A program made the translations under genes and the position numbers. A DNA stretch of 36,538 bases, from the IMG/VR virus record IMGVR_UViG_3300032285_000306, positions 1-36,538 of that record; one strand, given 5' to 3'. This DNA comes from a virus. Each line of letters opens with the position of its first letter. The stretch's first letter is position 1. This document shows positions 32,737 to 36,538 of the stretch, one piece after another. A model generated the notes under the pieces. The model saw nothing but the letters and a program-made list of their open reading frames with translations, did no database searches and was not told the origin of the DNA.

Positions 32737-32941
32737 TCGTTGACCTCTTACGTTTAGGTTTAATAGCTGTAATGCCCTCTTCAACTTCGGGTTCAGCATA
32801 CTTGGCTTTGATCATTGCATCTGCGGTTTCGTATGCAAGGGCTGATACCGTGTCCGGTCTAAACCCAAACGATGCACGCCCGTTCAATATGCCCATCAAC
32901 GCCAACCCTGCAAACAAATCTCTTAGGTCTTCATCATTCAT
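32714..32941 (-). CDS. Small conserved phage protein
   Basis: This 75-residue protein starts MNDEDLRDLFAGLALMGILN, followed by SALAYETADAMIKAKYAEPE and a Lys/Ser-rich tail. This start (DLRDxFA) and the ALAYETADAMI helix are familiar from many phage and prophage proteins without known function. It has an AAAGGAAAA site, overlaps the next gene by 23 bp and the previous by 8 bp. Confidence 0.65.
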   Translation of the reverse strand: MNDEDLRDLFAGLALMGILNGRASFGFRPDTVSALAYETADAMIKAKYAEPEVEEGITAIKPKRKRSTNVSSTNN

Positions 32942-33254
32942 TAAATTTTTCCTTTAGTTCTTCAGTACGTTTTTCATACTCTATATCAAATATTTGATTC
33001 AGCCCGGGCAACAACTCTTTGAGTAACTGCGCACGACTAATCGCCCCGCCCTTACGCTCTAAGTCATACGCTGTAAGCAAGCGGCGCATTACCTCTTTAG
33101 TAAAAACTCTTGGTTTGTATATTGGTGCTTCGGGGGTATCAAGGTAGACGTTATGCATTGCTAACAAGTTAGTCCAACGCCCAAAATCAATAAACTCTTT
33201 AGGGTTAGTTTTCCTGCGCTCAAGCAGCAACGCAACGCCTTTATTTATCGCCAT
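32934..33254 (-). CDS. Polymerase-flanking paralog family, member A
   Basis: This 106-residue protein starts with the shared motif AINKGVALLLERRKTNPKEF and continues with GRWTNLLAMHNVYL and FTKEVMRRLL. The same order (NKG, LL-x-R, NPKEF or HPEEF, R-W, and F-T-x-x-V-M-x-x-L-L) is found in three further genes here. A charged helical tail follows (RAQLLKELLPGLNQIFDIEY). A good AAGGAG site precedes the start. No catalytic motif is obvious; a polymerase- or DNA-associated role is suggested only by location. Confidence 0.7.
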   Translation of the reverse strand: MAINKGVALLLERRKTNPKEFIDFGRWTNLLAMHNVYLDTPEAPIYKPRVFTKEVMRRLLTAYDLERKGGAISRAQLLKELLPGLNQIFDIEYEKRTEELKEKFNE

Positions 33255-33564
33255 ATAAGCTCCTTCGTAGGTTTGCTGCCATGACTTCTTTAGTTTCTTG
33301 CATAGCCTTGGCTAACGCTTTCGTATAGTCTTTCGACACTTGGCGCATTGGGTCATGCTCACCTTGAAGCAACTCATTCATGACCGCTTCGGTAAAGCTT
33401 TCGCCTTTTTTACCTGTTGGGTAAGTACGTGTATCATTTAGGTTAACTTTGTAATCCCTAAATAAACCACTCCACCGCATAAGTTCAAACCGATCAAGCT
33501 GAGGTACAAACTCTTGGGGATGTGTTTCACGTCTTGCCAACAATATTTCAACGCCTTTGTTCAT
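33241..33564 (-). CDS. Polymerase-flanking paralog family, member B
   Basis: This 107-residue protein begins MNKGVEILLARRETHPQEF if the ATG at 33564 is used; alignment with its relatives supports that over a start four codons earlier at 33576. It continues with RWSGLFRDY and, after a charged loop, SFTEAVMNELLQ. The C-terminus is helical (AKAMQETKEVMAANLRRSL). It overlaps member A by 14 bp and member C by 4 bp (ATGA). Tandem related genes with diverged middles suggest old duplication followed by separate roles. Confidence 0.7.
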   Translation of the reverse strand: MNKGVEILLARRETHPQEFVPQLDRFELMRWSGLFRDYKVNLNDTRTYPTGKKGESFTEAVMNELLQGEHDPMRQVSKDYTKALAKAMQETKEVMAANLRRSLYGDK

Positions 33565-33866
33565 TTGTTTTTCCATAAGTTTGCGTATGCTTTTGCATAG
33601 TCTTCGGGTTTGATACCCATTCTCTTCGCCATGAGTAACTGAGTACCAGTAAGCTTCACAGTTGTCTTTGGCTCTTCAAGGTCACTTCCAGTAAGTATCC
33701 TGTGTATAACCTGCCTATTAAACTCCCGTGGGTTTTTGGGGTTATGTTCCTTGTCCAACGGATACGCATCAAACGCAATTAGCAAAGAAGTCCAACGCCC
33801 CATTGAACAAAACTCTTCAGGGTGAATCTTCTTACGTTCAAGCAGCAACTTAACGCCTTTGTTCAT
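33561..33866 (-). CDS. Polymerase-flanking paralog family, member C
   Basis: I chose the ATG at 33866 (101 residues, MNKGVKLLLERKKIHPEEF) over one at 33950. It has a GGGGAG site, overlaps the polymerase stop by one base (TGATG), and aligns with its relatives at residue 1. The shared parts are GRWTSLL and FNRQVIHRIL. The C-terminal end (TGTQLLMAKRMGIKPEDYAK) differs from members A and B and could be a small helical domain. Coupling to the polymerase stop suggests co-production with it. Confidence 0.7.
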   Translation of the reverse strand: MNKGVKLLLERKKIHPEEFCSMGRWTSLLIAFDAYPLDKEHNPKNPREFNRQVIHRILTGSDLEEPKTTVKLTGTQLLMAKRMGIKPEDYAKAYANLWKNK

Positions 33867-35692
33867 CAGCACTCCCCATAGCTTTTGCCAATACCGCTTT
33901 CGCAATTTAGCGGCAGCTCTAATGCCCACGTAGGGCGCATGCGCATACACATCTCGACATACTCTTGCGCAACCTCGGCTTCATCTTCAGGCGCAACGAT
34001 TGCAATTGCATCATGCACAGTCATTACCACTTTGTACTTCTTCGCTATGCGTAACATCTGCTCGCCAATTATGATGCGAGCCAAGCCTTGACACAGGTTC
34101 TCCACGACCTTACCGCCGTATATCTTGTTGGGTATGACTGCCTTACCCTTCTTGGTGTCATACACATACTCATCTTTCCCATCTTCCTTGGTTTGCTTAC
34201 GCAGGTTTGGGTACTTAATGTGCAGACCATTAGGCATACGTATGCCTTTCTTACCATCAACGACCAACACACCTTCACGTCCTAAATCACACGTTTTGTC
34301 CTCTGCGATAGCGTCAAGTGCGCGACCGGCTTGTCGCCATAGCTTCGTAATTGATGGGTATGTGTCGCGGTAAACTTGGATGATTCGAGCCGCTTCAGCT
34401 TCTTCAATGTCCACCCCAAAAGTTTTAAGTTGCATCTTGAATTTTGCAGCGCCCATACCATAGCCCGCACCAAGAATCGTTGTCTTGCCAACAAAGCGTT
34501 CGTCTTTAGTAATTTCTGATTCCGCCTTGCCATAGATAGCAGAAGCCATGATTTTGTATACATCTTTGCCTTCCTCAAATGCTTGCACTAAGTCATCCTG
34601 CCCTGCCAACCACGCCACCGTACGCGCCTCAATCTGTGATGAGTCTGAGTCAATCATCATGTAGCCTTCGGGTGCGCGGATAGCATGCTTCAAAGGTGAT
34701 TTACGCCCAAGGTTCTGCATATTCACTTTGTCATCGCCACCCCAACGCCCTGTGTGTGCTGCGTAATAGCGTAGTGGTATGGGCAGTCTGCCACGCGAAG
34801 AAATGCTGATCAACCGCTGAGTCCTTGTCTCTTCTTGCGTAGACTTAAGCCCTAGACGGGCCGCAACTAAAGCTTGAACAAAAAAGTTTTCATGCTCGGC
34901 TAGTTCTTTGAACCCCTCATCGTTTTTAGCAAACGCCCATGTTTCTTTACCTGTTGTTGGACTGATCTTGCGTGGGGGTGTCACATTAAGTTGTAGTAAT
35001 ACCTCTGCAAACTTATCGTTGCTCATTAACGCTTCACGGTTTTCCATCCCCGCTGAGTCAAGCAAATCTGCTTTAGCTTGTTTTTGATGTTCTAGATGTG
35101 CAAACAAAGCCGTTGGGCTAAGCTCAAGTACCGGCTCACTAAACATCCGTATGGTCAGGTCAATCAGCCGCAGCTCAAGCGCAGGAAACTCAGGCGACAT
35201 ACAGTTAAACAACTTGTACGTTAGCTCAACGTCGTTGACGCAATACTCCCCGTACTCAGCTAGGTCGTAGGGCGTGAAATCTAGCCGGTGCTTGCCTAAC
35301 GCTTGCGCTACCGCAGTACCTTTCTGACCCAAGCCATAATGCTGCGTAAGCTTGTCGAGGCTTCCACCCACTTCTGTGCTGTGTATAGCCCTTGCCATAC
35401 TAAGCGTATCAAGCCAACCACGAGGGTGAATGCCAAAATACCAACTAAGAATAGAGGCATCAAACATAGCATTGTGAGCAAGTGCAAGATTGTCGTCAAA
35501 GTCGAAACTTTCGAGAAATTTTTTGGTGTCTGAGTATGTGCCTGAGAACCATTGCGCTTCACCATCGTTCACCTTTACGCTTACGCCTATCACTTCAAAC
35601 TCTGCACCACGTACGTACTCTTCGGTAGTCAGTTTGCTCAAGCTATACGTCTGCGAGTAGTACGTTTCAAAATCAAGTGTAATGATGTTCAT
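33866..35692 (-). CDS. DNA polymerase I-like (family A) with 3'-5' exonuclease
   Basis: This 608-residue family A polymerase begins with an intact exonuclease domain: D7-x-E9 in LDFETY, N74 and D78 in NAMFDAS, and Y150-x-x-x-D154 in YCVNDVELT. Polymerase motif A is DSSQIEAR (D350-R357), motif B is R399-x-x-x-K403-x-x-x-L407-x-x-x-Y411, and motif C is VHDAIAI (D561). L407 is the equivalent of E. coli Pol I residue 762, where Phe or Tyr is usual. Ala562 replaces the usual Glu of motif C. There is no 5'-3' exonuclease domain. It is the replicative polymerase of the phage, working with the primase-helicase. Confidence 0.93.
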   Translation of the reverse strand: MNIITLDFETYYSQTYSLSKLTTEEYVRGAEFEVIGVSVKVNDGEAQWFSGTYSDTKKFLESFDFDDNLALAHNAMFDASILSWYFGIHPRGWLDTLSMARAIHSTEVGGSLDKLTQHYGLGQKGTAVAQALGKHRLDFTPYDLAEYGEYCVNDVELTYKLFNCMSPEFPALELRLIDLTIRMFSEPVLELSPTALFAHLEHQKQAKADLLDSAGMENREALMSNDKFAEVLLQLNVTPPRKISPTTGKETWAFAKNDEGFKELAEHENFFVQALVAARLGLKSTQEETRTQRLISISSRGRLPIPLRYYAAHTGRWGGDDKVNMQNLGRKSPLKHAIRAPEGYMMIDSDSSQIEARTVAWLAGQDDLVQAFEEGKDVYKIMASAIYGKAESEITKDERFVGKTTILGAGYGMGAAKFKMQLKTFGVDIEEAEAARIIQVYRDTYPSITKLWRQAGRALDAIAEDKTCDLGREGVLVVDGKKGIRMPNGLHIKYPNLRKQTKEDGKDEYVYDTKKGKAVIPNKIYGGKVVENLCQGLARIIIGEQMLRIAKKYKVVMTVHDAIAIVAPEDEAEVAQEYVEMCMRMRPTWALELPLNCESGIGKSYGEC

Positions 35693-35695
35693 GGC

Positions 35696-36199
35696 TTAGC
35701 CTTTGAAAGTACCGTTTTTTGTAAACGTATGCGTACCTGTTGGGGTCTTGACGACTACTGAGCCGCCACCGCCACCGCCACCTGAACCAACAATACCGCT
35801 ACCGCCGCCTCCACCGCCCGCTACTACAGGCATTGGTATTGTCTGCCACACTTGGTTGCCGGTATAAACTTCATACTGGTCTTTAGTGTGGTTAAAGCGC
35901 AGTGAACCGACAGCAGGTTGTGGGCGTATAGCCCTGTCAATCTCTTCTTCACCCTCACGAATAAGCAACTCTTTCATTACCGCTTCGGTAAAGTCGTCAC
36001 GCCTTTTGTTTGCGTACCATTCGTTTAAACCCATCTTGGCTTCTTCCCATACTTCCTTCTCTTCCTCAGTCATGTAATTAGAAAAGTTTTCCATCATGTT
36101 TGTCCACCTAGACGCAATGTGGCTACCAGTTTCCCAACCAAAAAACTCTTCAGGGTGTGTTTTAGTACGTGCAATGAGTATCTCAAATCCTCGGTTCAT
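35696..36199 (-). CDS. Paralog family member D with fused Gly-rich tail-like C-terminus
   Basis: This 167-residue protein starts MNRGFEILIARTKTHPEEF, then RWTNMMENFSNYM and DDFTEAVMKELL, matching the family members downstream of the polymerase. From residue 97 a different region follows: GSLRFNHTKDQYEVYTGN and WQTIP, a long glycine run (residues 128-147) and TPTGTHTFTKNGTF. That part resembles fiber or other virion-protein ends rather than replication proteins. Its start overlaps the preceding stop by 4 bp (ATGA), and its stop lies 3 bases from the polymerase start. A fusion or domain-capture event is likely. Confidence 0.7.
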   Translation of the reverse strand: MNRGFEILIARTKTHPEEFFGWETGSHIASRWTNMMENFSNYMTEEEKEVWEEAKMGLNEWYANKRRDDFTEAVMKELLIREGEEEIDRAIRPQPAVGSLRFNHTKDQYEVYTGNQVWQTIPMPVVAGGGGGGSGIVGSGGGGGGGSVVVKTPTGTHTFTKNGTFKG

Positions 36200-36538
36200 T
36201 TGAATCCCAACCCTTTAGCCATTTTGCTTAGCATGCTTTCAGACATAGGCTGCGGGTGTGAGCCTTGGCTAGACTGATACGGGTTAGCGTTCATCAAATT
36301 TTGACCACTCCGCGCTATCGCTTCCTGATGTGCTGCTATGTGTTGAGCGTGGGCTACCGCCTGATTCTGTGGTGATAGTTGATTGATTGCATTATGGTAC
36401 TGGTGCGTGTCTACATCGTACAGACCTTGCAAGCCGTACGTATTTATGTCGTTGTTGGCTGTGCTGACACGTAATTTTTGTTGCCCAAACTGCGTTTGCA
36501 GGGATTGCATCTTTGCTCGTGCATCGGCTTCTGATGAT
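36196..36538 (-). CDS. Gln/His-rich protein, 5'-truncated by window edge
   Basis: The frame is open to the window end, so the start is missing; the Met at 36510 is likely internal because the codons before it read SSEADARAK. The visible 114 residues are rich in Gln, Ala, Asn and His (YHNAINQLSPQNQAVAHAQH, then AAHQEAIARSGQNLMNANPY) and end MLSKMAKGLGFK. I do not recognise a family. It overlaps the next gene by 4 bp and is therefore part of the same operon. Confidence 0.6.
   Translation of the reverse strand, partial: SSEADARAKMQSLQTQFGQQKLRVSTANNDINTYGLQGLYDVDTHQYHNAINQLSPQNQAVAHAQHIAAHQEAIARSGQNLMNANPYQSSQGSHPQPMSESMLSKMAKGLGFK

Follow-up and report, generated by a model that had tools for sequence, protein, structure and literature searches.

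Why would a phage keep several copies of one small gene on both sides of its DNA polymerase, and what have those copies come to encode? The question is raised by IMG/VR virus record IMGVR_UViG_3300032285_000306, which was analysed whole (36,538 bp, here called the window) and is a fragment of a genome sized 58–66 kb in relatives. An earlier reading of these letters (the sequence-only reading) had picked out four paralogous open reading frames (ORFs) flanking the family A DNA polymerase gene, polA, with conserved N-termini, diverged ends and no known motif to explain them. We find that the window contains a fifth paralog and that the ends are unrelated short tails, many of which, across the family, carry pieces of the major capsid protein (MCP) or of a putative scaffolding protein. 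This anatomy, a helical carrier domain of about 70 residues (the N-domain) followed by a variable, often disordered tail with capsid or scaffold pieces, is well supported.

The paralogs and their tails

The four ORFs lie where they had been placed, all on the minus strand: P1 (106 amino acids (aa), 32934–33254), P2 (107 aa, 33241–33564, with an alternative upstream ATG possible at 33576), P3 (101 aa, 33561–33866) and P4 (167 aa, 35696–36199). P3, P2 and P1 form a tandem with overlaps of 4 bp (P3 and P2) and 14 bp (P2 and P1), separated from P4 by polA (608 aa, 33866–35692, minus strand), their fixed neighbour. Their common part is the first 70 or so residues, with the consensus MNxGVxILLxRMxxNPEEF...KW...LTxxE..AL...F...VM..LL, and occupies 33057–33248 in P1, 33361–33564 in P2, 33675–33866 in P3 and 35963–36199 in P4. 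P1–P4 can be aligned across the N-terminal two thirds and have 13 invariant columns (M1, N4, G6, L10, R13, P18, E20, F21, R26, W27, F51, V55, L60); pairwise E-values within the window run from 3e-16 to 4e-5, and a single profile, made from these same four, recovers each at E <= 9e-41. In view of these columns and E-values the resemblance is beyond chance, as the sequence-only reading had held. The fifth paralog, P5, is represented in the window by its C-terminal part (36196–36537, minus strand), interrupted at the edge; it is complete as L001:3605-4228 on contig L001, which is 99.3% identical to the window across 4,678 bp and extends past the edge, so that the start of P5, MSEEFSAGVNILLQRMETHPEEF, falls outside the window. 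The gene order in the window's clade is VRR-NUC, P5, P4, polA, P3, P2, P1.

Beyond the N-domain the paralogs part company. The tail of P1 (AISRAQLLKELLPGLNQIFDIEYEKRTEELKEKFN, 32940–33044, minus strand like the other tails of the window) matches the start of a protein of about 304 aa, at 65–74% identity in 13 of the 13 relatives holding that ORF, and the tail of P2 (VSKDYTKALAKAMQETKEVMAANL, 33268–33339) matches the same protein some 100 residues further along, at 50–61% identity. This protein is the MCP: it matches phrog_371, major head protein (E 5.6e-23), and the Pfam families Phage_capsid_4 and Mu-like_gpT, and its homologues are annotated as capsid in Planktothrix phage Pag-Yong1 (72.7% identity), DSL-LC04, Pelagibacter phage HTVC023P and others. 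P1 thus ends in the MCP N-arm, residues 3–37 (MCP profile E 2e-12), and P2 in MCP residues 103–126 (E 2.5e-5). The tail of P3 (KTTVKLTGTQLLMAKRMGIKPEDYAKAYANL, 33576–33668) matches the end of another protein, a charged, helical product of about 330 aa whose gene lies between those for portal and capsid and which belongs to phrog_28737, a family of unknown function; the match covers residues 293–323 of 326 (profile E 2.2e-6), with a sub-threshold match to phrog_28737 positions 308–334 of 341. Because of its place in the portal–capsid interval and its composition, we take this protein to be a putative scaffold. Two public records (OL906435 47607-48494, MW574966 29130-30092) label the putative scaffold gene that goes with this type of capsid kinesin-like, probably a coiled-coil artefact.

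P5 carries a segment (SLQTQFGQQKLRVSTANNDINTYG, 36433–36504) corresponding to MCP residues 204–227 (profile E 8.3e-3), and the same MCP segment recurs in L016:3456-4010 (E 2.9e-4). The evidence is weaker for the tail of P4 (35699–35926), made up of a fibre-like segment (RPQPAVGSLRFNHTKDQYEVYTGNQVWQTI, 35837–35926) and a glycine-rich end (35699–35818): the fibre-like ORF is matched at E 0.016 by phmmer, an E of 1.9e-5 being partly due to low complexity, and the glycine-rich end matches Gly_rich_2 below the cut-off (E 0.0055). A P22-type coat protein was considered as the origin of the LTIQQIT.. start and dropped, PF11651 not being found in 17 records. The sequence-only reading was therefore right about the conserved N-terminus and wrong about the ends, which are not diverged copies of one sequence and match segments of different virion proteins; likewise, its statement that no known motif explains the family applies to the N-domain and fails for the ends.

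The same construction recurs throughout the family, of which we collected 227 ORFs (175 distinct). Many tails bear one or two short copies, of about 15–37 residues, of the MCP or of the C-terminus of the putative scaffold, and the MCP segments so found are 3–37, 46–80, 103–130, 139–164, 204–229 and 274–302. Two pieces may follow one another in a single tail, as in L048 (MCP 274–297 and scaffold 290–322), L034 (MCP 46–78 and scaffold) and L016:3456-4010 (MCP 139–164, then 212–229, in order). No two of P1, P2, P3 and P5 carry the same piece, nor do the two L016 paralogs, out of three, that have a detected piece.

Enrichment and selection

Short matches call for controls, and 124 nonredundant tails were thus compared with profiles of 53 protein families conserved in 14 related genomes, alongside 20 shuffled sets and the reversed tails. 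The MCP profile was matched by 21 of the 124 (0.05 expected from shuffles, 0 reversed) and the scaffold profile by 15 (0.15 shuffled, 1 reversed). The next family was matched by 6 tails, which are compositionally biased (0.35 shuffled, 1 reversed), and the remaining families stayed near chance. Conversely, when the MCP profile was run over 16,159 ORFs of 17 genomes, it gave five partial matches outside capsid genes, all five within 600 bp of polA.

The pieces have been kept at the level of protein. Between the P1 tail and the MCP N-arm 23–25 of 34 residues are identical, and the same codon is used at only 7–11 of the identical residues, which is no more codon sharing than between MCPs of different phages; recent copying of MCP DNA into the P1 tail is ruled out by this saturation. 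In the window's clade the ratio of nonsynonymous to synonymous substitution (dN/dS) is 0.33, 0.18 and 0.25 in the mimicking cores of P1, P2 and P3, and 0.29, 0.20 and 0.18 in their N-domains. The tails in this clade are under purifying selection similar to that on the N-domain, which fits the earlier suggestion that the duplicates have a selected function.

A predicted −1 frameshift to the MCP C-terminus

In some phages a further piece of capsid is apparently added by programmed −1 frameshifting: counting all the loci described here, more than 30 divergent relatives have the MCP C-terminus in the −1 frame. In 19 members (18 distinct) the MCP C-terminus (..ERYxFGWSDPRxxFG..) is encoded across the tail in the −1 frame, and in none in the +1 frame. 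All 17 members scored have an in-phase X XXY YYZ slippery heptamer where the −1 frame is open. With few exceptions it is C CCA AAR (coding for D-P-K where the N-domain ends) or G GGA AAG (L-G-K), and in 15 of the 17 a Shine–Dalgarno-like (SD-like) sequence lies at most 18 nt upstream, against a background of 13%, with a spacing of 10–12 nt in the main types. Heterozygosity at positions 1, 2 and 3 of the −1 codons is 0.28, 0.22 and 0.48, and since variation peaks at the third position, the −1 reading is the constrained one. Most −1 frames stop 3–8 residues past DPR, much as capsid proteins stop shortly after that motif. With the MCP C-terminus thus placed in the −1 frame behind a heptamer, one gene could give two tails. 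A prediction set down in advance was borne out in 45 new nonredundant members, among which 13 have the motif in the −1 frame and none in the +1 frame, with a heptamer in 12 and an SD-like sequence in 9 of the 13; these loci were picked as relatives of frameshift-type members, so that they inform on the arrangement and not on its prevalence. In the 60 nt after the slippery site, simple shuffles gave no consistently low z-score for RNA structure, and a stem-loop is not always present at such sites.

Canonical heptamers of this kind serve the programmed −1 frameshifts of lambda gpG-T (G GGA AAG) and dnaX (A AAA AAG), the latter with a Shine–Dalgarno sequence about 10 nt upstream. The frameshift-type members resemble both in their heptamer and dnaX in the SD-like sequence; they differ from both in that the second reading frame specifies a copied C-terminus belonging to the product of a different gene, the MCP. 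Two apparent cases in the window, the MCP N-arm in the +1 frame of P2 and MCP 101–126 in the −1 frame of P3, were rejected, as each is merely the next gene. In L037:7524-7982 and members like it, TLSAGQTHAQ in the zero frame and RYAFGWTDPRS in the −1 frame are read from one and the same DNA, so that some of the Q/A-rich tail sequence may be a side effect of the overlapping code.

Distribution and position beside polA

A profile of the four window paralogs led to 24 loci, and a widened profile to at least 356 matching stretches in IMG/VR. Among the genomes of 84,980 bacterial and archaeal species there was one match, on a 5-kb contig (L104, CAISKC010000526.1) of a Legionella metagenome-assembled genome, probably a mis-binned phage contig. 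Members occur in phage genomes of 58–66 kb with their own MCP, portal, terminase and polymerase, which are not satellites, and on this sequence evidence the family is phage-only. In cultured phages a tblastn search with three members gave no convincing match. Four phages with the same MCP were also scanned with the N-domain profile, and none of the hits was convincing as a member (best E 0.013); weak matches of P3 in HTVC023P and 023Pt_psg01 fall on their scaffold-position gene. Genes upstream of polA in Rhizobium phage RHph_TM3_14A (E 3.9) and Aeromonas phiA008 (E 0.16) were tried as remote members and found no support from an iterated profile.

All 212 of 212 members are on the strand of polA. 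In 114 of 119 loci the closest member on the upstream side either runs into the polA ORF or stops no more than 60 nt short of it. Among loci sampled via polA, a member lies upstream in 32 of the 67 loci with enough upstream sequence and downstream in 10 of 77; in many of the polA relatives lacking a member, a VRR-NUC-like gene, so identified by eye from the sequence, adjoins polA. The family is placed between a VRR-NUC gene and polA, and copy number per locus ranges from 1 to 5. From these counts, the position of the family is fixed, and its presence and copy number are variable, which is what the sequence-only reading had proposed to look for among relatives.

The N-domain

AlphaFold2, run on a 90-sequence alignment for L092:9992-10399, predicts a helical N-domain with a predicted local distance difference test score (pLDDT) above 90 over most of residues 1–72 and a disordered tail (pLDDT below 50). 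For P1 of the window the model is helical throughout (mean pLDDT 90.5), with the tail as a single helix, 74–104. No match to a well-described family emerged: among 37 members scanned against Pfam and PHROGs, no family was matched by more than three, the best common match being phrog_4685 (E 0.006). No chain among the sequences of solved structures matched at E <= 0.05. Fold searches returned a best E of 1.2 in the PDB with Foldseek, ordinary helical matches with VIA-align (best Z 5.6) and, in BFVD, an uncharacterised protein of an uncultured phage (E 4.6e-3). Such weak matches do not establish a new fold.

What the tails may do

We tentatively favour, as possible though short of an even chance, that the tails are interface mimics which act on capsid assembly, by interfering with it or by tuning it. 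The reason is that the two strongest tail matches, the capsid N-arm and the scaffold C-terminus, are interacting partners in the 80alpha/CpmB case described below. The scaffold-like tail of P3 would bind capsid protein at the site of the scaffold, the N-arm-like tail of P1 would bind the scaffold, and other capsid segments would fill contacts between subunits. Displayed on the N-domain, the tails would compete with or template assembly, with duplication supplying one carrier for each peptide. The effect may be to recruit, to delay assembly until replication has run, to alter its geometry, or to spoil assembly by satellites and rival phages with related capsids.

Several observations weigh against interface mimicry. 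No member lies upstream in 35 of the 67 related polA loci, and none anywhere in the fetched stretch in 36 of 79; with the family missing from about half of the close polA relatives, assembly does not depend on it. No capsid or scaffold piece is detectable in 69 of the 124 nonredundant tails, and MCP segments 103–130, 139–164 and 204–229 are not obvious scaffold contacts. The window record has no MCP gene of its own, so that its tails had to be compared with the MCPs of relatives, and its paralogs show no convincing frameshift site. The tails would have to be expressed with the replication operon, ahead of or alongside the late proteins, a timing that is suggested by gene position. Finally, all 12 related genomes in which an MCP C-terminus is present have SDPL there, and the tail copies mostly have SDPR, as do the capsids of the cultured relatives DSL-LC04, HTVC023P and 023Pt_psg01; given this difference from the related capsids, the capsid that the tail pieces follow may be ancestral or foreign.

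The main rival, next after interface mimicry and rather unlikely in our estimate, is that the tails are decoys, which would display capsid or scaffold epitopes and occupy host immune sensors or satellite proteins, so that the real capsid goes unnoticed or unhijacked, with different paralogs covering different epitopes. Copy number, tail repertoire and presence differ among relatives as an arms race would predict, and the segments sample many regions of the MCP; sensors binding freshly synthesised MCP are known in bacteria (CapRel-SJ46, PMC9712102), and satellites bind helper coat proteins, as with TcaP (PMC10945586) and CpmB (PMC5644958). A peptide binding CapRel in the manner of MCP would, however, activate and not block it, scaffold C-terminal tails are hard to account for as sensor decoys, and selection on the tails of the window's clade is purifying, not diversifying. 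The remaining explanations are less likely still. Tails could act as tags for loading the N-domain into the procapsid, where it would be an internal head protein, to be delivered with the DNA into the next cell. The internal head proteins of T4 are so delivered and are directed to the prohead by a short N-terminal targeting and cleavage peptide; the family would be alike in the use of a short sequence to direct accessory proteins to the prohead, and differs in that its tails are segments copied from mature capsid protein. Scaffold C-terminal and MCP N-arm peptides are plausible loading tags, and many small, fast-evolving proteins share this logic. We nevertheless hold such targeting to be improbable, as several of the tags are MCP segments for which a place in the interior is not obvious, the genes belong to the replication operon and not the head operon, and the capsid-derived peptide is C-terminal and, in some members, reachable only via a frameshift.

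The sequence-only reading had itself offered polymerase accessory proteins, and one may imagine the N-domain bound to the polymerase or replisome and the tails tethering replication to capsid assembly or packaging. The constant strand and the close spacing to polA speak for such a role. Adjacency alone, on the other hand, fits an accessory-gene hot spot, the N-domain has no recognisable fold relative, nothing was found that ties the family to polymerase activity, and, with about half of the close polA relatives lacking the family (the same 35 of 67 loci), it is not an obligate accessory; we regard this role as a long shot. Least probable of all, and very much so, is passive capture, in which a recombination hot spot at polA collects gene fragments and the tails are debris. 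The tails are indeed short, mosaic and different between paralogs, and capsid pieces also occur at the same place in a second small ORF family (B) and in the linker of a DUF3310 protein. Debris would not be expected to sample just capsid and scaffold out of 53 conserved families, to keep its peptides with synonymous sites near saturation, or to come with a conserved arrangement of heptamer and SD-like sequence that opens access to the −1 peptide.

Taken more broadly than interface mimicry alone, it is on balance probable that these genes form a phage-encoded repertoire of capsid and scaffold peptides, with a duplicated carrier, a different piece on each copy and a capsid C-terminus added by frameshifting, that would time or sabotage assembly (the phage's own, a satellite's or a rival's) or blind capsid-sensing immunity. 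No description of such proteins was found in the open text of PubMed Central, and if the proposal is true, the repertoire would represent regulators or counter-defence proteins of a new class. Pieces of late structural proteins that are long kept at the protein level in early-region genes, and are in part apparently accessed via a frameshift, imply a selected interaction with something that binds capsid or scaffold; the assembly machinery, satellites and bacterial immune sensors are candidates, and any of them would make a new regulatory or counter-defence principle. The family would also flag those capsid surfaces that matter, and small unannotated genes may be readable via their tails instead of their conserved domain.

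Comparison with capsid-directed proteins

The closest likeness is to CpmB of SaPI1, a capsid size redirection protein that combines a dimerization domain with a scaffold-like C-terminus, a near-copy of the scaffold peptide, and outcompetes the scaffold for capsid protein; in phage 80alpha the helix of the MCP N-arm has the 16 C-terminal residues of the scaffold next to it (PMC5644958). P3 and 14 other tails are built in the same way, as small helical proteins with an N-terminal domain and a C-terminal copy of the scaffold C-terminus. The differences are also clear. CpmB is encoded by a satellite that uses the helper's capsid, whereas the family is phage-encoded beside polA; and CpmB has one scaffold-like peptide, no capsid-protein peptides and no described frameshift, whereas the family has capsid peptides. 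The N-domain gave no sequence or confident fold match to a CpmB-type dimerization domain, and an absent match is not proof of unrelatedness. TcaP of PLE and Sid of P4 are likewise small proteins, acting on phage capsid protein to change its assembly (PMC10945586); these are satellite-encoded scaffolds that bind the capsid from outside, and they are not described there as copying capsid or scaffold sequence.

Other motifs and pieces around polA

A recurrent tail motif, [IL]x[IL]Gxxx[LI][DTS]Exx[IL]xx[IM]Kxx, is carried by L169, L163, L021, L030, L032:9507, L104, L122, L137 and eight more members, and no counterpart was found among the other proteins of related genomes. Some larger ORFs upstream of polA (L129:741-1271, L153:2249-2794, L137:617-1150, L125:2730-3338, L066:1-489) also contain KKIVLxxSEVxxANRLGIxTAEYAKQK, the motif of the scaffold C-terminus; in L129 and similar cases this motif lies in the linker of an apparent helix-turn-helix and DUF3310 protein. 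Family B, small and unrelated, has the domain ..YxMRFxNGKYTIYRxEY..TTLAKGLDKxTAxGMMKLL.. and sits mostly just upstream of N-domain genes or polA (L068:3530-3850, L131:1037-1279, L133:3747-4004, L148:3603-3860, L142:2194-2427, L090:4101-4373 and G013 58082-58327). Its N-terminus carries capsid-like peptides, either the MCP N-arm (E 2e-4 to 2e-3) or, as judged by eye, the MCP C-terminal motif.

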